The translations under genes were made by a program, and so were the position numbers. From positions 1 to 45,757 of the forward strand of contig NZ_AOJN01000061.1 in the NCBI RefSeq assembly GCF_000337335.1: 45,757 bases of DNA, given 5' to 3'. The notes beneath the pieces are model-generated. The model was not told where the DNA came from. It ran no database searches and saw only the letters and a program-made list of their open reading frames with translations. Below, piece by piece: positions 9,413 to 45,757 of the stretch. Positions within the stretch are counted from its first letter, which is position 1. Every line of letters begins with the position of its first letter. The DNA comes from Halorubrum distributum JCM 10118 (GTDB lineage: Archaea; Halobacteriota; Halobacteria; Halobacteriales; Haloferacaceae).

Positions 9413-9483
9413 CGGCGGCTAAATCCGGCATTCGAGACTGGTTTCGTCGCGGCAGTTTTTAAATACGAGAGCCGTAACAGTGA

Positions 9484-9802
9484 TTGCTTATAAAGAGCGG
9501 AGCGGTGGCGCGTGCCTGCGAGCGGCCGACAGGCCGCGAGCCAGCGCGCGCGAGGGACGCGGTGAGCGACGGGCGACCGAAGGGAGCCCGAGCGAACCGC
9601 GAGGCTGGGGAGGTGTGAGGCGCTGTGCGGAGCGGGGCGGGTGGGACTCAAAGGGGCAGCCGTGAGGGCGCCGTAGGCGACGCAAGCACTGGAAGGAGCG
9701 AGCAACGCGAGCGACTGAAGCGCGCAGCGAGCGTACGGCGCCCTCACGGCTGGGGCTTTGGAAGTGTTCGCCGCCGATCCGCTATCAGCTATTTATAAGC
9801 AA
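9484..9802 (+). repeat. Structured ~320-bp element, copy 1 (putative non-coding RNA)
   Basis: Copy 1 is bounded by a perfect 11-bp inverted repeat, TTGCTTATAAA (9484-9494) and TTTATAAGCAA (9792-9802). Inside are three hairpins. P1 is GCGGCC 9522-9527 with GGCCGC 9532-9537. P2 is CGCGGT 9558-9563 with ACCGCG 9596-9601, and an inner CGGGC 9570-9574 with GCCCG 9586-9590. P3 is a 19-bp stem, 9657-9675 with 9734-9752, extended through a GGG/GGG internal loop by CAAAG 9649-9653 with CTTTG 9756-9760. Conserved blocks are GAGGCTGGGGAGGTGTGAGG (9601-9620), GGGACTCAAAGGGGCAGCCG (9643-9662) and CGGCTGGGGCTTTGGA. The left box is placed to act as a promoter, with transcription starting near P1. No protein is convincing. 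It lies between hemL and argG. Confidence 0.85.
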
Positions 9803-10153
9803 GCGACAGGGAATTTGAATCCGTTCGCCGCCGATCCGCTGCCGGTCACGTATAGCGGAACAGTTTTATAGCGGAGATCGGGTACGTACAGGTGATGACC
9901 GCAGCGGCTCGCCGCGACCTCGTCCGAGGCCGACGAGCCCTGCGACCGCGACGAGACGTCCGACCGCCGCGACCGGCTTCCGGCGCGGCGCGACGACGAG
10001 GCCCCTCGGGCCGATAACTTTCATCCCTCGTCGCGTTCGCGCCGTTCCGTTCCGAAGAGTCTCGACTCCGCGTTCCGCGAGCGGCCGCTCCGCCCTTTTC
10101 TTACAATATTAAAACCGCTGAATTTAAGGGTGTAGGCCGGGTGTACACTGGTA
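9803..10153. other. Region between repeat copy 1 and argG; partial element duplication and promoter
   Basis: The sequence GTTCGCCGCCGATCCGCT, present at 9766-9783 inside the element, recurs exactly at 9823-9840. A TTTTATAGC box (about 9863) precedes an ATG at 9895 that opens a 40-codon Arg-rich frame (14 Arg, 12 of them CGA) ending at 10017; another frame there looks like acidic haloarchaeal coding sequence without a start, so this may be a decayed gene. A GAGCGGCCGCTC palindrome followed by a CCCTTTTCTT tract lies near 10079-10105. The argG promoter is probably AATTTAAGG near 10120, about 30 bases before its ATG. Confidence 0.45.
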
Positions 10154-19725: not shown

Positions 19726-19869
19726 ACGGGTCCGATCGCTCCGCAGCGGACAAATGCGTATCGGCGGCGCGGCGACGCGGCGTCGGCCTCTTGAGCGCCG
19801 CGCTGCGACGCTAAACCGCGGGGGAACGTCCGCCGGCGGTGCCGTGCGGGCTGGGAGGAGCCCGATCCG

Positions 19870-21177
19870 CTACGGCCAGAGTCCCCTGGACTCGTGGGCC
19901 TCGGCGATCCGCGTGAGCGCCACGATGTACGCCGCGTCGCGCCACGTGACGTCGCGCGCTTCGAACTCCGTTCTGACGGCCCGCCAGGCGGCCCGCATCT
20001 CCGTTTCGAGCTCGTCGTTCACGCGTTCGAGCGACCAGGACCGACGGTTGATGTCTTGGAGCCACTCGAAGTAGCTCACCGTGACGCCGCCGGCGTTGGC
20101 GAGGATGTCCGGGATCACCGCGACGTCCCGCGCCGCGAGGATCGAGTCGGCCGCCGCGGTCGTCGGCCCGTTCGCGCCCTCGATGACGAGGTCCGCGGCG
20201 ATCGCGTCGGCGTTGGCTTCGGTGATCACGTTCCCCAGCGCCGCCGGAACGAGCACGTCGACGTCGAGCGTGAGCAGCTCGTCGTTCGTGATCACGGTGT
20301 CCGCGTACGTGGTGACGGCCTCCGGCTCCTCGTCGTGCGACGGGACGGACGCCGTGTCGATCCCCGCCGGGTCGTACATCGCCCCGTTCACGTCGCTGAT
20401 CGCGACGACGGTCGCTCCCCAGTCGTCGAGCAGCCGCGCGGCGTTCGCCCCGACGCTCCCGTACCCCTGGACCGCGACCGTCGTCTCCGCGAGCGGACGG
20501 TCGTAGTACTCACAGACCAACTGCGTGATGATCGCGACGCTGCGACCCGGGGCCTCCTCGCGACCCTCACTGCCGCCGACGACCGGCGGTTTCCCGGTGA
20601 CGACACCGGGTATCGTTTCGCCCTCCTGCATCGAGTACGCGTCCATCAACCACGCCATGGTCTGCGGGTCGGTTCCCATGTCGGGGGCGGGTATGTCTCG
20701 GTTGGGACCGATGGCGTCCCGGAGCTCCTGTGCGAACCGACGAGTGAGCCGCTCTTTCTCGTCCGTGCTCAGTTCCTTCGGATCGACGGCGACGCCGCCT
20801 TTGGCGCCGCCGAACGGTAGGTCCATGACCGCGCACTTCCAGGTCATCCACATACCGAGCCCGACGCACTCGTCTCTGGTTACGTGCGGGTGGTACCGGA
20901 GCCCGCCCTTGTACGGGCCTCTGACGCTGTCGTGTTGGGCGCGATACCCCGTGAACACCTCGACGGTCCCGTCGTCTCGCTCGACGGGGATCGTCACCTC
21001 GTGGACCTTCTTCGGGTGTTTGAGGCGTTCGACGACGTTCGGGTCGATGTCGAGGTGGTCGGCGGCGTGGGACAGCTGGCGACGGGCCGTTTCGACCGCG
21101 GACGTCGGCTCAACCGGTTCGTCCGCCTCTTGGGCCGACTCGTCGCCGGCGTTGTCCGATTTGGAGGCCATCGTCAT
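19870..21177 (-). CDS. gdh: Glutamate dehydrogenase (Glu/Leu/Phe/Val family)
   Basis: Catalyses the reversible oxidative deamination of glutamate to 2-oxoglutarate and ammonium with NAD(P). The 435-residue product has the substrate-binding [15 protein letters not shown], the catalytic lysine region [14 protein letters not shown], the conserved [16 protein letters not shown], and the nucleotide fold at [17 protein letters not shown]. The first 50 residues are an acidic extension. Two starts are close: ATG at 21177, which overlaps the stop of the upstream zinc-ribbon gene as ATGA, and ATG at 21171. I chose the former because of that coupling. The direction of use, assimilation or glutamate breakdown, and the cofactor cannot be read from the sequence. 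Confidence 0.94.
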
Positions 21178-21317
21178 TCGAGCGGCATCTGCCGGTTTCG
21201 CATCGGTCCGCCGCAGTCCGGACACTGCCCGGGCTTGCGCTCGCTGATGAGGATGTTTCCGCACTCGAAGCACTCGTACGTGGTTTCGTCGTCCGTTTCG
21301 GGTTCGAGGTCTTTCAT
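21174..21317 (-). CDS. Small rubrerythrin-like zinc-ribbon protein
   Basis: A 47-residue protein with two CxxC pairs, ECFECGN (Cys16, Cys19) and QCPDCGG (Cys32, Cys35), spaced as in rubredoxin/zinc-ribbon folds, preceded by an acidic N-terminus. Small proteins of this rubrerythrin-like type are widespread in haloarchaea; I recall them near glutamate dehydrogenase genes, but cannot confirm that here. Its TGA (21174-21176) overlaps the gdh ATG (21175-21177), so the two are almost certainly cotranscribed and translationally coupled. The start at 21317 has a promoter-like TTATACACT on the same strand at 21380-21372. It may bind zinc or iron; a role alongside glutamate dehydrogenase is inference only. 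Confidence 0.85.
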
Positions 21318-21363
21318 CGTGAGTTCACGAGTGCCAGCAGACGGCGCGGGACACTCTGGGCAG

Positions 21364-21406
21364 ACATAATAAGTGTATAAGGGTATGTGTACAGGTTTAT
21401 TATAGA
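21364..21406 (-). promoter_or_regulatory. Promoter of the zinc-ribbon/gdh operon
   Basis: On the minus strand TTATACACT (21380-21372) lies about 55 bases before the ATG at 21317, with a second AT-rich box TTCTATAATAAAC further upstream (about 21408-21395). The plus strand reads GTGTATAAGGGTATGTGTAC, partly dyad-symmetric, suggestive of an operator. The nine-base TTATACACT also occurs upstream of the neighbouring regulator gene (24418-24410). Confidence 0.45.
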
Positions 21407-21430
21407 ACCATTTCAGAGAGAGGTTGTTCG

Positions 21431-24313
21431 TTATTCAACCGTTTCCGCGGACGCGGCGATCGGGAGGTTGTTCTCCTCGAAGAGCGTCGCGAACAGTTTG
21501 CGCTGGACGGTCCGGGCGTGCGCGTAGAAGGCGGGCGGAGAGATCCCTAACGTCGCCGCGACGTCTTCGCCGGTGTTCTCGCGTGGAGACTCGAAGTACC
21601 CGCTGTAGTACGCGGTCTGGATCACCTCGAGTTGCCGCTCGGTCAGCTTGTCGAGGAACTTCGAGTAGGGGTCGTGCGTGGCGGTCTGGTCGAGCGTTCG
21701 TTTGGCGCTGAGTTCGACGGTGGAGAAAGTCTCCCGGACGAGCCGCGTGATCGTCCGGACCTCGATGCTGTCCGGGATGTCGATCACGAGCGTCGTCGTG
21801 GTCGGATCGGCCGTCGCCTCGCGAAACACGGCGCCGTGATCGGCCAGGTCCAAGGCGAGGAACGGCTGCGTGAGCCTGAGTCGCAAGACCCCGCCGTCCT
21901 CCCCGGCGCTGATCGTCCGCACGTCGTCGATCGCGACGAGCTGCGAGGCGGCCTCGATAACGGCCTCTAAGGCGGTGTCCTCGACGGTGACGAACACGTA
22001 GCTCCCCTCGGTGGACTGTCGGACGCCCCCCTGATACGAGAGGGTACAGCCCGCGTCCCGCGCGAGCCGCGAGAGGACGAACCCCGGATCGTCGACGTCG
22101 AACTCGACGCGCGTCATCGACGTCGTGAGCAGCGCGTTCTTCCGCTCGATCGCGCTGAGGGCGGAGGCGACCGTTTCGCCGAGCTCTGCGAGGACGGCCT
22201 TCGTCGTGTCGTCGAACGCGTCCCGGGCCGGCGCGTACACCGTCAGGACGCCGTGCGAGAGGTCGTTATACACGAGCGGAATACTCAGCACGGAGAGGTA
22301 GTCGCGGGCCAGCGCGTCCTTGCGCCACTGGGCGTCTCGGAGCTCGGCGGCGACGTTCGTCACCAGCGTCACGTCGCCGGTGGCCGCGGTTCGGCCGGCC
22401 GGTTCCGCGTGTTCCACGCCGACCGCGAACGACTGGCTGTCCAGGTACCCCCGCCCGGTGCCCGCCCAGGCCCGCGGTTCGACGGTGTCGGTCGCCGGGT
22501 CGACCGTGCCTATCCAGGCGAACCTGAAGCGGTCGGCCCCGGTCAACAGCTCACAGACCGCGTGGTCGATCTCCTCTCGCGTTTCGGCTTGGACGACCGC
22601 CTGATCGATCTCGCGGATCGTCTCGTTGATTCGGTTCAGGGCGGTGAGCTGTTTGTTTTGGCGCTGGAGCGTGCGGTCCTGTTCGCGGAGTCGCGACTCC
22701 CGGGAAATTCGGTCGAGGGCCGCCTCGGCGGTCGCGGCGAGCAGATCGGCGAGGTCCCGCGTCACGTCGTCGAAGGCGCCCACCCGGTCCGAGCCGGCGA
22801 CGAACACGCCGTGGTCGCCGAGTGGGATGTAGGTCGCGCTCCGAAGGTCCGTCGCCCGGTTTTCGAGGCGGTCGGCTCCGTGGACGTCGTCGAAAAACAG
22901 CGCTTCGTCCTCGACGAAGCTGTAGCTCGGGATCGCTTCCCCGTCGGCGTGAACGACCGGGAGCGGCCCGTTGAGCGACTTCATCGCGGGGGAATACGCC
23001 GCGGGCCGGAGGTCGTTGGTGTCGGCGTCGAAGAGGTACACCGCGCTCGCGTCCAGGTTCAACACGCCCGGCGTGTCGTCGACGACGCGCTGGGCGACCT
23101 CTTGATGCGTCTCCGCGTAGAGGAAATCGCGAGCCGTCTCGTGGAGCGTCGTGAGCGCCTCCTCACGCCGCTTGCGCTTCGTGATGTCCCGACAGCTGAA
23201 GAGGACCGTCCCGTCCTGAATCGAGACTTCGCGGACGTTGACCAAGAGCGTGTGCTCGCGGCCGGCCTTGTCCGTGGCGGTGGTTTCGATGTTCTTGAGA
23301 ACGCCGTCCGCCGCGAGTTCGGCGCGATCGAAGAGGTCCTCGCCCAGGAGGTCGTCGATCGTCCCCTGTTCGCGGATCTCGTCGGCCGTGTAGCCGAAGA
23401 TGAAGTGGACGTTCGGACAGACGTAGGTGTACTCGCCGTCTTCGTCCGTGATGAGGACCGTGTCCGTCATGTTGTTCAGCGTGACGCGGTGGAGCTCCTC
23501 CGACTGACGGAGGTCGCGCTCCAGCTCGACGCGCTCGGTGATATCGACCCCTTCGACGACGACCGAAACGAGCGCTCCGCGCTCGTTCTCGACGGGGCGC
23601 GCGGAGAGGTCGACGACGCGCTGGTCGTCGACGCCCGGGGGCTGCGTGACGACGGCATTGACGAATTCGCCGCCCAGCGCGTCCGTCACGATCTGTCGGA
23701 CGTCCGCGTTCGGGGCGTCGCTCCGCGACCACCACGGGAGCGTCCAGAACGGCTCGCCGAGCGTCGCCTCGACGTCGACGTCGATCATCTCCCGCGCCGT
23801 TTCGTTCGCGCGGGTGAGTGATCCGTCCGGGTCGAGCACCCACGTCGCGGTCCGGGAGTCGTCGAACACCGCGTCGAACTGTCTGGCACGCTCCCGTTGC
23901 GTGACCGAGCGCCTTGCGGACCGGACGGCCCGTTCCGTTCGATCGACGAGCTCGTCTGTCATCCGTGCGTCCGGCTCCGTGAGCGCGACGTAATCGGTGA
24001 CCCCTGCCCCGATCGCCTCGCTGGCGACGGCCTCGCTCCCCGCCGCGGTACACAACAGGACCGGGAGCGTCGCGGTCTCGTCGCGGACCGCTCTGAGGAG
24101 GTCGATCCCGGTCTCGCGTTCCAGCGCGTACTCGCTGACGAGGCAGTCGGGGGATCGTTCCCTGACGGCGTCGAGCGCCTCCGCCTTGGTTCGGACCCGC
24201 GTCACGGTCGCGTCAGTCCGGCCCTCAAGCGTCTCCGCGAGCCGGACGACCCAGTCGTTCGCCCCGACGAGCAAGACCGTCGACGAATCGAGGACCCGTG
24301 TCTCTGGAGTCAT
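21431..24313 (-). CDS. Bacterio-opsin-activator (Bat)-like sensor and HTH transcription regulator
   Basis: The 960-residue cytosolic protein has, in order: a receiver-like domain (about 10-125), two PAS domains (about 145-265 and 268-395, the second NMTDTVLITDEDGEYTYV), two GAF-type domains (about 405-545 and 575-725), the Bat-specific GAF-like region (about 735-885) and a C-terminal helix-turn-helix. The HTH reads LTERQLEVIQTAYYSGYFE then ATLGISPPAFYAHARTVQRK. The receiver has SEY where the phospho-acceptor Asp is expected, so it may not be phosphorylated. This layout matches haloarchaeal Bat-like light/redox regulators, whose targets are mostly unknown. The frame opens 58 codons earlier, but ATG at 24313 gives the natural N-terminus. 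It is transcribed in the same direction as the zinc-ribbon/gdh pair. Confidence 0.88.
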   Translation of the reverse strand: MTPETRVLDSSTVLLVGANDWVVRLAETLEGRTDATVTRVRTKAEALDAVRERSPDCLVSEYALERETGIDLLRAVRDETATLPVLLCTAAGSEAVASEAIGAGVTDYVALTEPDARMTDELVDRTERAVRSARRSVTQRERARQFDAVFDDSRTATWVLDPDGSLTRANETAREMIDVDVEATLGEPFWTLPWWSRSDAPNADVRQIVTDALGGEFVNAVVTQPPGVDDQRVVDLSARPVENERGALVSVVVEGVDITERVELERDLRQSEELHRVTLNNMTDTVLITDEDGEYTYVCPNVHFIFGYTADEIREQGTIDDLLGEDLFDRAELAADGVLKNIETTATDKAGREHTLLVNVREVSIQDGTVLFSCRDITKRKRREEALTTLHETARDFLYAETHQEVAQRVVDDTPGVLNLDASAVYLFDADTNDLRPAAYSPAMKSLNGPLPVVHADGEAIPSYSFVEDEALFFDDVHGADRLENRATDLRSATYIPLGDHGVFVAGSDRVGAFDDVTRDLADLLAATAEAALDRISRESRLREQDRTLQRQNKQLTALNRINETIREIDQAVVQAETREEIDHAVCELLTGADRFRFAWIGTVDPATDTVEPRAWAGTGRGYLDSQSFAVGVEHAEPAGRTAATGDVTLVTNVAAELRDAQWRKDALARDYLSVLSIPLVYNDLSHGVLTVYAPARDAFDDTTKAVLAELGETVASALSAIERKNALLTTSMTRVEFDVDDPGFVLSRLARDAGCTLSYQGGVRQSTEGSYVFVTVEDTALEAVIEAASQLVAIDDVRTISAGEDGGVLRLRLTQPFLALDLADHGAVFREATADPTTTTLVIDIPDSIEVRTITRLVRETFSTVELSAKRTLDQTATHDPYSKFLDKLTERQLEVIQTAYYSGYFESPRENTGEDVAATLGISPPAFYAHARTVQRKLFATLFEENNLPIAASAETVE

Positions 24314-24399
24314 CGTTCGCCGAAGGGAGGAGCCGACGCGGTTCTCGACCGCGAGTCGCGCTCCGTCTCGGCTATGCCACTGGCGTCGGTCCGGGGACA

Positions 24400-24425
24400 C
24401 GCGCACATGAGTGTATAACACCGAA
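24400..24425 (-). promoter_or_regulatory. Promoter of the Bat-like regulator
   Basis: TTATACACT on the minus strand (24418-24410) in an AT-poor setting lies about 97 bases before the ATG at 24313. The same nine bases occur in front of the zinc-ribbon/gdh genes. The leader after a start near 24385 would be about 70 bases. Confidence 0.35.
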
Positions 24426-24504
24426 CCACCGCTTACCAAAGCTGTTTGGTGTCGAACCTCCGGGGACGTGCGGTCGAGACACGCCACCGGAGCCCGACGC
24501 CGGT

Positions 24505-25677
24505 TTAGTTCCCGGTCCAGCGCAGGATGGCGAGCGTCCCCTCGAAGAGGGCGATCATCGTCAGCGTCACGATGATCGGCGCCATGCCGGTCGGGTCGGG
24601 GCTAAAGAGGAACGCGATCCCGAGGAACGACCCCCAGAAGATCAGCCGCTTCGCCTCCAGCCACTGCCGGGTGACGAGGTTCATCATGATCGCGAGCATA
24701 ATGAAAAGCGGGATCTGGAACACGATCGCCATGAACGCGAGCATGATGACGATCAGGTTGAACGTCTCCGCGAGCCCGAAGGCGATCGTCGCCGCGTCGG
24801 CGGTGTAGGTGGTGAAGTACGAGAAGATCGCGGGCAACACGAGGAAGTGTGCGAACGCGATCCCGATGCCACCTAAGACGAGGCTCGTCGGCACCGCGGC
24901 GAGGTAGTAGCGCCGCTCGGTCTGGTACAGCCCCGGCCGCATGAACCGGTACGTCTCGTAGACGAACGCCGGGAGCCCGACCACGACGCCCGCGAGGCCG
25001 GCGACCTTCAGCCGGGTGAGCGGGAGTTCGAGCGGGCCGTACAGCCGCGGGCGGTTCTCCATCGGCGCCGGGATGTGGTAGCTCCAGAAGTAGTTGATCA
25101 GCTCCGTCGACTCGGTGACGACGACGAGGGTGGCGAGGCCGCCGATGAGGAAGACGACCGCCAGCCGGCGCATCATCTCCTCGATGTGGGCCGCCAGCGG
25201 CATCTCCTCGTCCGTCTCGGGGCCCTCGATCCCGTCGAAGGGCTCGTCGTCCTCGGTCGCCGGCACGCCGGCGGTCGCGGGGTCCGCGGCGTCGGCGGTC
25301 GTCGCCGGGGCGCCGCCGTCGCCGGCGGCCTCGGTGCCCGCGCCCGCGGCGTCGTCGACCGACCCCTGGTCGCTCTCGCTCTCGTCGTCGAGGGCGTCCG
25401 ACCGACCGGCGTCCTCGGCCTCGACCACCTCGTCCGGGTCCGAGAGCGTCTCCGGCCGCTCGTCGGCGGACTCGTCCGCGTCGCTCTCGGCCGACCCCAC
25501 CTCGGGCTCGACTTCCGCGGTCACCTCGGACTCGACGCTCTCGGACGCCGGCGAGTCGTCGGGTTCGTCGGCCTCGGACCCCCCGTCGACGGCGCCGTCG
25601 CTTCCGGGTTCGGCCTCGTCGGTCGACCCGTCAGCGGCGGCCGAGTCGTCGTCGCGCGACCGGTCCGAGTCGTCCAT
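24505..25677 (-). CDS. tatC1: Sec-independent translocase protein TatC with long acidic N-terminus
   Basis: TatC is the receptor of the twin-arginine translocase, which exports folded proteins. The 390-residue product has two parts: residues 1-165 are a low-complexity, very acidic Ser/Asp/Glu/Ala domain, and residues about 165-390 are a six-span TatC unit. The TatC part begins MPLAAHIEEMMRRLAVVF, contains the conserved LYGPLELPLTRLKVAGL and RRYYLAAVPTS, and has FLFSPDP before the last span. The acidic domain is far longer than in typical TatC and may be intrinsically disordered on the cytoplasmic side (inference). Transcription diverges from the double TatC gene across a mirrored promoter pair. 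TatC is essential in haloarchaea, where most exported proteins use Tat. Confidence 0.93.
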   Translation of the reverse strand: MDDSDRSRDDDSAAADGSTDEAEPGSDGAVDGGSEADEPDDSPASESVESEVTAEVEPEVGSAESDADESADERPETLSDPDEVVEAEDAGRSDALDDESESDQGSVDDAAGAGTEAAGDGGAPATTADAADPATAGVPATEDDEPFDGIEGPETDEEMPLAAHIEEMMRRLAVVFLIGGLATLVVVTESTELINYFWSYHIPAPMENRPRLYGPLELPLTRLKVAGLAGVVVGLPAFVYETYRFMRPGLYQTERRYYLAAVPTSLVLGGIGIAFAHFLVLPAIFSYFTTYTADAATIAFGLAETFNLIVIMLAFMAIVFQIPLFIMLAIMMNLVTRQWLEAKRLIFWGSFLGIAFLFSPDPTGMAPIIVTLTMIALFEGTLAILRWTGN

Positions 25678-31304: not shown

Positions 31305-31628
31305 CTTATAAAAAGAAAGTGCGGTGGCGCGCCTGCGAGCGGCCGCCACCGGCGGCCGCGAGCCAGCCCGCGAGGGACGCCGCGAACGCCCGGAGGGCGT
31401 GAGCGGCGAGGCTGGGGAGGCGTGAGGCTGCGGTGCTGTGCGGTGTGGGGAGGGACTTAGAGGGGCAGCCGTCGAGGGCGGTGTAGGCGACGTAAGCACC
31501 GGAATGAGGGAGCGAAGCGAGCGAATGAGGAGCGCAGCGAGCGAATGAGGAGCGCAGCGAGCGTACACCGCCCTCGACGGCTGGGGCTTTGGAAGCCCTC
31601 ACCGCAGTAGCATCGATTACTTATAAAC
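31305..31628 (+). repeat. Structured ~320-bp element, copy 2 (putative non-coding RNA)
   Basis: Left box CTTATAAAA (31305-31313), right box ACTTATAAAC (31619-31628, repeated at 31653-31662). P1 is a 9-bp stem, 31339-31347 with 31351-31359. P2 is CGCCGC 31378-31383 with GCGGCG 31403-31408, an inner ACGCCC 31386-31391 with GGGCGT 31395-31400, and GA/GA between them. P3 is a perfect 20-bp stem, 31466-31485 with 31564-31583. In the outer P3 extension CAAAG of copy 1 has become TAGAG, which still pairs with CTTTG through G-U pairs. The P3 apical part is enlarged by a 20-bp tandem repeat (31511-31563, about 2.6 units of AGCGCAGCGAGCGAATGAGG). The element lies in a 598-base gap between uvrA and a convergent gene. 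Confidence 0.85.
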
Positions 31629-44354: not shown

Positions 44355-44671
44355 TTTATAAAAGAGGTGCGGTGGCGCGTGTCTGCGAGCGGCCGGAGCG
44401 AAGCGGAGGCCGCGAGTCGCACGCGCGAGGGAGTCGGTGGTCCGGAGCGAAGCGGAGGACCACCGACGAGGCTGGGGAGGTGTGAGGCAGCGGTGCGGTC
44501 GCGGTCGGGTGGGACTCAAAGGGGCAGCCGGGAGGACGAAGCCCGGCGCAGTAAGCACCGCAGGGAGCGAGTGAAACGAGCGACCGAGGAGCGCAGCAAG
44601 CCGCGCGAGTCCTCCCGGCTGGGGCTTTGGAGGTGTTCGCCGACGATCCGATGTCATTTATTTATAAGTAA
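44355..44671 (+). repeat. Structured ~320-bp element, copy 3 (putative non-coding RNA)
   Basis: Left box TTTATAAAA (44355-44363), right box TTTATAAGTAA (44661-44671). P1 is GCGGCC 44389-44394 with GGCCGC 44408-44413. P2 is an 11-bp stem, GTCGGTGGTCC 44433-44443 with GGACCACCGAC 44457-44467; the loops of P1 and P2 are the same 13 bases, GGAGCGAAGCGGA. P3 is a 13-bp stem, 44525-44537 with 44609-44621, extended by CAAAG with CTTTG across GGG/GGG. All conserved blocks are present (for example GGGACTCAAAGGGGCAGCCG at 44511-44530). The left box also lies about 100 bases upstream of hisB on the other strand and might serve both directions. The element is antisense to the his genes. Confidence 0.85.
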
Positions 44672-45549: not shown

Positions 45550-45757
45550 TTATAAATGGCCAGCTGTGGATCGACGGCGAATGCCTCCAAAGCCCCAGTC
45601 GCTCGGCGATACGTGATTGACCGGAGAACGACGGCGAACACCTCCAAAGCCCCAGTCGCGAGGACGCCGTACGGTCGCTGCGCTCCTCAGTCGCTCGTTT
45701 CACTCGCTCCCTGCGGTGCTTACGTCGCCTACGGCGTCCTCGCGACTGCCCCTTTGA
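45550..45757 (-). repeat. Structured element, copy 4 (truncated by window end)
   Basis: Copy 4 lies on the minus strand, its 3' boundary at TTATAAAT (45550-45557). Its P3 arms are 45653-45671 and 45730-45748 (19 bp, perfect), with the P3 extension CAAAGCCCC at the boundary and CCCCTTTGA at the window end. Its apical sequence from GTAAGCACCGCAGGGAGCGA onward matches copy 3 almost base for base. The terminal block is duplicated: bases from 45631 (ACGGCGAACACCTCCAAAGC) recur from 45574 (ACGGCGAATGCCTCCAAAGC) with a 57-bp offset. P1, P2 and the promoter-side end are outside the window. Orientation is toward hisA. Confidence 0.8.

Follow-up and report, generated by a model that had tools for sequence, protein, structure and literature searches.

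The window analyzed here, 45,757 nucleotides in all, lies on one contig (C61) of the genome of Halorubrum distributum JCM 10118 (3.3 Mb in 68 contigs). Between hemL and argG, two genes named from sequence and synteny, positions 9502 to 9761 of the plus strand hold one copy of a folded intergenic repeat of about 260 bases found in haloarchaeal chromosomes. The core runs from GCGGTGGCGCG to CTGGGGCTTTGG; the original prediction, which placed the element at 9522 to 9760, was nearly right in its extent but slightly too short. The window contains four copies. Copy 2, with a TAGAG variant, lies at 31321 to 31592 (plus strand), copy 3, with GTCGGTGGTCC in its second stem, at 44369 to 44630 (plus strand), and copy 4, on the minus strand at 45644 to 45757, is cut by the window edge. 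A separate feature, an arginine-rich open reading frame of 38 to 42 amino acids (MTAAAR...RGRRALRPRRDVRPPRPASGAARRRG...; 9895 to 10017, plus strand), lies upstream of argG (10154). It was found there in all 30 genomes of the genus that were examined, with its stop about 133 to 141 nucleotides before argG. A TATA-like box precedes its ATG by about 30 bp, and the frame resembles an archaeal instance of an arginine leader peptide that would control argininosuccinate synthase.

The copy between hemL and argG (fold z = -5.9) has three stems, all read on the plus strand. P1 (9508 to 9551) consists of an outer stem (9508 to 9515 with 9544 to 9551) around an inner hairpin (9522 to 9527 with 9532 to 9537). 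P2 (9558 to 9601) is a module of variable sequence and is followed by the conserved, mostly unpaired GAGGCTGGGGAGG (9601 to 9613). Next comes GGGTGGGACT (9639 to 9648), made of two invariant GGG runs separated by one free base, then ACT. The third stem has two parts: in P3a, CAAAG (9649 to 9653) pairs with CTTTG (9756 to 9760), and in P3b the arms at 9657 to 9675 and 9734 to 9752 form 19 bp. An internal loop of GGG (9654 to 9656) opposite GGG (9753 to 9755) separates the two parts. Among 67 stems with a GACTGAAAG variant of the core from other genera, the upstream GGCTGGGGAGG block was present in only 11, which indicates that P3 is the minimal unit; the search that found these stems fixed part of the motif, and the invariance of the motif there is partly imposed.

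On the 5' side, an AT box is found about 8 to 15 bp before the core. In the hemL-argG copy it is TTATAAA (9488 to 9494), 8 bases before the core, and a TATA-like box was present in 94 of 138 copies. A TTTTTAAATA box lies further 5' (9456 to 9465), where 46 of 138 copies have a box like TTTAAA. If the AT box acted as a TATA box, the transcript would begin within P1, and thus the box is not obviously a promoter for the entire fold. On the 3' side, a semi-conserved tail (9762 to 9798) ends in the TATTTATAA box; in other copies it is the start of a tandem unit of 57 to 58 bp. After the core there are about 30 semi-conserved bases and TATTTATAA, and then zero to four or more such units, which repeat the 3' end of P3 and the TATTTATAA box. 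At least one extra unit was present in 92 of 140 copies. Examples of tandem tail units are copies 7233 and 84747 of a one-contig relative (G152) and L004, L015, L023, and L027 of the H. distributum genome.

The family has roughly 150 to 190 intergenic copies per genome, with a density of about one per 16 kb. When as many as two mismatches were allowed, GGGRCTCRAAGGGGCAGYC matched 144 times in the H. distributum genome (G000), versus 1 match for the reversed pattern; in the window the motif had 3 matches versus 0.01 expected. A profile search of G152, with 2.4 of its 3.02 Mb covered by the element counts, found 148 elements, 142 of them full-length (96%). None of the 148 lay more than half within a called gene, the calls coming from a simple purpose-made open reading frame scorer. 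Other copies were mostly 75 to 85% identical to the window copy. The window had no match in Rfam (release 15) at the gathering cutoff, the single match in the element region being an irrelevant one of 13 bases (E = 8.5), and a known Rfam RNA was rejected as an identity on this basis. A literature search, with most subscription journals outside its reach, found no description of the family.

The original prediction was that the stems stay paired through base changes, and all of the changes that it quoted were found in the window sequence. P2 differs between copies and still pairs: CGCGGT (9558) with ACCGCG (9596), CGCCGC (31378) with GCGGCG (31403), and GTCGGTGGTCC (44433) with GGACCACCGAC (44457). 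The P3 arms beyond the internal loop differ in length among the three whole copies (19, 20, and 13 bp), and in copy 2 TAGAG (31458) stands opposite CTTTG with two G-U pairs, adjoining GGG/GGG. The same pattern extended through the genome. In an alignment of 23 copies from H. distributum, 97.9% of the cells formed standard pairs and both partners had changed in 25 of the 50 pairs; all 500 shuffles fell short of this, and structures slid along the alignment were at most 49% paired. Loss of the covariation with many homologues would have refuted the prediction, and no such loss was seen: for P3 in G152 (140 stems, 129 distinct rows), the seven column pairs that covaried most strongly were all true base pairs. 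Covariation at the proposed pairs exceeded that in the controls, as expected of a structured element under selection.

P2 behaved as a module. Its 5' arm took 42 distinct forms in a set of 128 copies, and the median P2 stem was 9 bp in real copies versus 4 bp in chimeras made from two copies. P2 types were common to paralogues but different between orthologues. The hairpins are often swapped as whole modules, so that one exchange may mimic several compensatory changes, and whole-module exchange does add to the apparent compensation in P2. In P3 stems the compensation was stepwise, in single pairs.

Comparison of orthologous copies was consistent with selection on the fold. In P3, 35 orthologue pairs had 42 double Watson-Crick changes, 10 changes involving G-U, and 4 broken pairs. 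Divergence rose from 1.0% in the G-runs to 8.4% in the stems and 19.4% in the P3 loop, and it was highest in the tail (27.5%) and in the DNA further downstream (25.4%). In the closest orthologues there were no changes at 142 G-run positions. This order, from G-runs through stems and loop to downstream DNA, demonstrates that selection acts on the copies in place, and the constraint at orthologous sites is that of a structured element. Intermediates one step from a Watson-Crick pair were G-U rather than A-C by 17 to 6 in G152 and by 32 to 7 in other genera (summed over stem positions 8 to 20). The much greater frequency of G-U intermediates indicates that folding takes place in the strand given here, and because G-U pairs are tolerated, RNA is likelier than single-stranded DNA to be the acting form, as far as can be judged from the sequence. 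Covariation, constraint on orthologues, and the wobble asymmetry together support the proposal of selection on an RNA or single-strand structure: the repeat is a chromosomal element that folds in a strand-specific manner and that selection maintains at fixed positions.

Repair of palindromes by template switching could likewise produce covarying arms. It is unlikely to be the whole answer, since purely mutational repair would erase the GGG/GGG mismatch, and the excess of G-U intermediates and the orthologue pattern also argue against it. Gene conversion between copies may contribute to the conservation. However, simple homogenization is an unlikely account because the loops are too different between copies.

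The internal loop was also predicted to be invariant, and both of its GGG strands were unchanged in 140 of 140 copies in G152. GGGNGGG was kept in 134 of 140 copies, its runs consisting almost entirely of G. The middle base of GGG-N-GGG-ACT was free (C in 79, T in 58, G in 2, and A in 1 of 140 copies). A 15-base sequence that is repeated in the tails served as an internal control and was looser, with the loop G's conserved at 81 to 94% versus 100% in the core. The GGG-N-GGG on the 5' side of P3 and the GGG/GGG loop make four GGG runs. These are conserved around a spacer base that is variable, and together they are the signature of a G-quadruplex with an internal duplex arm. Four local G-runs were present in only 20 of 140 copies, and thus a quadruplex would need the distant 3' strand of the loop. 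The four invariant runs would then form a three-tier G-quadruplex held between P3a and P3b.

We give a probability of about one-half to the reading that these copies are a dispersed, chromosomal, intergenic family of about 260 nucleotides that acts by way of its folded sense strand, most probably in the form of RNA, with a quadruplex and a shared trans-acting protein. Each copy would be transcribed, and the folded RNA would be recognized by one protein common to all copies. Sharing of the protein could explain why many different-looking copies keep one scaffold while the loops and the sequence of P2 are free. The family may serve at gene 3' ends or close to them, since its copies favor convergent gaps, but an element that occurs in either orientation is seemingly independent of its neighbor's transcript.

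The main rival, which we consider possible though on balance unlikely, is a nonautonomous mobile repeat of the BOX, RUP, or MITE-like kind, moving slowly or only in the past, with a fold that serves its own spread and no function for the host. Such repeats have a precedent in the pneumococcal BOX, RUP, and SPRITE elements, which were judged to be parasitic and slow moving (PMC3049150), and the variable tandem tails and the avoidance of promoter-bearing gaps are consistent with this history. So is the distribution within the genus. Copy number ranges from the background level (0) to about 190, and the hemL-argG site, compared over longer range, carries an element in some species and a degraded one in two, with none at all in others. 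Three genomes (G369, G347, and G310) were at background level, in contrast to G152, G226, and G027 of the same genus, and three further genomes had about ten copies. The existence of genomes without the element within one genus indicates that it is not essential.

However, the positions of the copies over short range argue against a mobile repeat. The element was present at 37 of the 38 loci that could be placed in both H. distributum and G152, in the same orientation at 36, within flanks that were 92% identical; the insertion differences between close relatives that would mark a MITE were thus not found in this comparison of two species. The high proportion of full-length copies also counts against this rival, as does the purifying selection on individual copies after species divergence, of which dead insertions would show none. 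Over short range the positions hold, and across the genus copies have been gained and lost. The in-place constraint argues against a parasitic repeat as the whole story, and the range from 0 to 190 copies argues for some such history. The two readings can both be true in sequence if the repeat spread first and was then put to use.

No clean element boundary could be recovered from sites that differ, because the flanks of hemL-argG in occupied and empty species are too diverged to mark insertion ends and the difference between the window and G152 is a complex indel of 4.7 kb. In that indel, a gene block of the window (19779 to 24506) is replaced in G152 by two inverted elements about 218 bp apart (C1, 377972 to 378987). 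Elements may mark sites of indels or recombination.

Across the class, 287 of 391 genomes carried the core GGGNGGGACTSRAAGGGGC (one mismatch allowed), in up to 188 copies. These genomes represent 66 of 86 genera, and the reversed pattern was near zero. Carriers of a GACTGAAAG variant include Halorussus, Haloarcula, Haladaptatus, Haloglomus, Natronococcus, and Salinarchaeum. Copies were almost absent from viruses and plasmids, a further point against a mobile repeat. The phage search gave no match, plasmids gave 5 partial matches, and the exact core motif was on just two viral contigs, L337 (IMGVR_UViG_3300031251_000107) and L338 (IMGVR_UViG_3300042010_000231). A phage or plasmid origin was rejected on these results. 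Reverse transcriptase (PF00078) was found in 0 of 8 genomes, which likewise counts against mobility and led us to reject a SINE-like retroelement or retrotransposition.

It is improbable that the element acts as DNA, with the hairpin and G-quadruplex forming on the DNA and serving as the target of a protein of the nucleoid, of replication, or of recombination. Several features fit such a site: the element is chromosomal, at its density of one per 16 kb it occurs in both orientations with balanced strands (70:78), and all 72 exact matches in one genome (G009) are on a single contig (C1). Outward-pointing, head-to-head pairs of the core motif 35 to 43 bp apart, which recur in several genomes (L089; G294, G384, and G336 of genus g29), would fit as well. 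However, fixed spacing was not found, the coefficient of variation being 0.88 versus 0.96 ± 0.08 expected, which is near random. There was also no clustering of strands along the chromosome that would give a replication-strand signal, and the fact that G-U is tolerated more than A-C is more in keeping with RNA.

A cis-acting mRNA element of the upstream gene, such as a terminator, 3' stabilizer, or attenuator, is less probable still. Copies are enriched in convergent gaps, of which they occupy 11.5%; the share is 5.6% for tandem gaps and 4.1% for divergent ones. The upstream gene was on the same strand as the element in 87 of 148 cases, an excess that is a by-product of the convergent gaps. 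In tandem gaps the numbers in sense and antisense were equal (36 versus 43), which argues against a link to neighboring transcripts, and the mRNA element was rejected for this lack of orientation preference.

A stand-alone omega RNA of a TnpB/IS605 element, or a palindrome-associated transposable element (PATE), is barely credible. Haloarchaea commonly carry IS605-type elements and PATEs (PMC3119063), and the repeat does end in a hairpin. However, TnpB counts did not track copy number, with 23 TnpB matches in G347, a genome with zero copies, and in 17 TnpB genes the 900 bp that follow the TNB domain had no similarity to the element; a TnpB guide RNA was rejected accordingly. Homogeneous PATEs are more than 90% identical to one another, unlike the identities of mostly 75 to 85% to the window copy found here. 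An anti-Shine-Dalgarno decoy formed by GGAGG in the unpaired block was rejected because, on inspection of the alignment, the following base is a free T or C and extended pairing is thus not conserved.

If the preferred reading of a family acting through its folded sense strand is taken further, the element might be a class-wide archaeal RNA family with up to about 190 genes per genome, in which two covarying helices lock the G-quadruplex core in place and a dedicated protein binds it. We hold this fuller version only tentatively. Were it true, a major part of the RNA G-quadruplex signal that has been reported in cells of haloarchaea would come from this family, which would also represent a new type of multicopy ribonucleoprotein or chromosome system. 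About 1 to 1.5% of these chromosomes would consist of a folded element absent from Rfam and selected copy by copy, and many of the high-GC intergenic palindromes of haloarchaea would be one old family and not noise. The family offers specific, testable sequences for the G-quadruplexes of haloarchaeal cells, and its hundreds of natural variants can be used for probing the fold.

BOX repeats are modular, with variable numbers of internal units, as is the haloarchaeal element. BOX, RUP, and SPRITE of Streptococcus pneumoniae further resemble it in their many dispersed intergenic copies, extensive secondary structure, and slow or no current movement (PMC3049150). However, the hosts and sequences are unrelated, and the haloarchaeal family is class-wide, with selection in place on each copy and invariant G-runs. 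The REP and BIME sequences of bacteria are also intergenic palindromic repeats, present in hundreds of copies and often at the ends of genes, but REPs are 20 to 40 nucleotides long, in contrast to an element of about 260 nucleotides with three stems and G-runs. Closer to hand, the PATEs and SMRs of Haloquadratum are transposase-free haloarchaeal repeats with many copies and palindromes (PMC3119063). Homogeneous PATEs differ between strains of one species (PMC3119063), whereas orthologues of the element described here are 74 to 97% identical and positionally stable. With regard to G-quadruplexes in archaea (PMC12873603, PMC7565180), the passages of these papers that matched our search terms do not describe a conserved element family; those of the former report staining of RNA and DNA G-quadruplexes in Haloferax volcanii cells (PMC12873603). 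The element shares with those structures its four GGG runs and a high-potassium host, and it differs from what those passages describe in that its four runs are tied to covarying stems.
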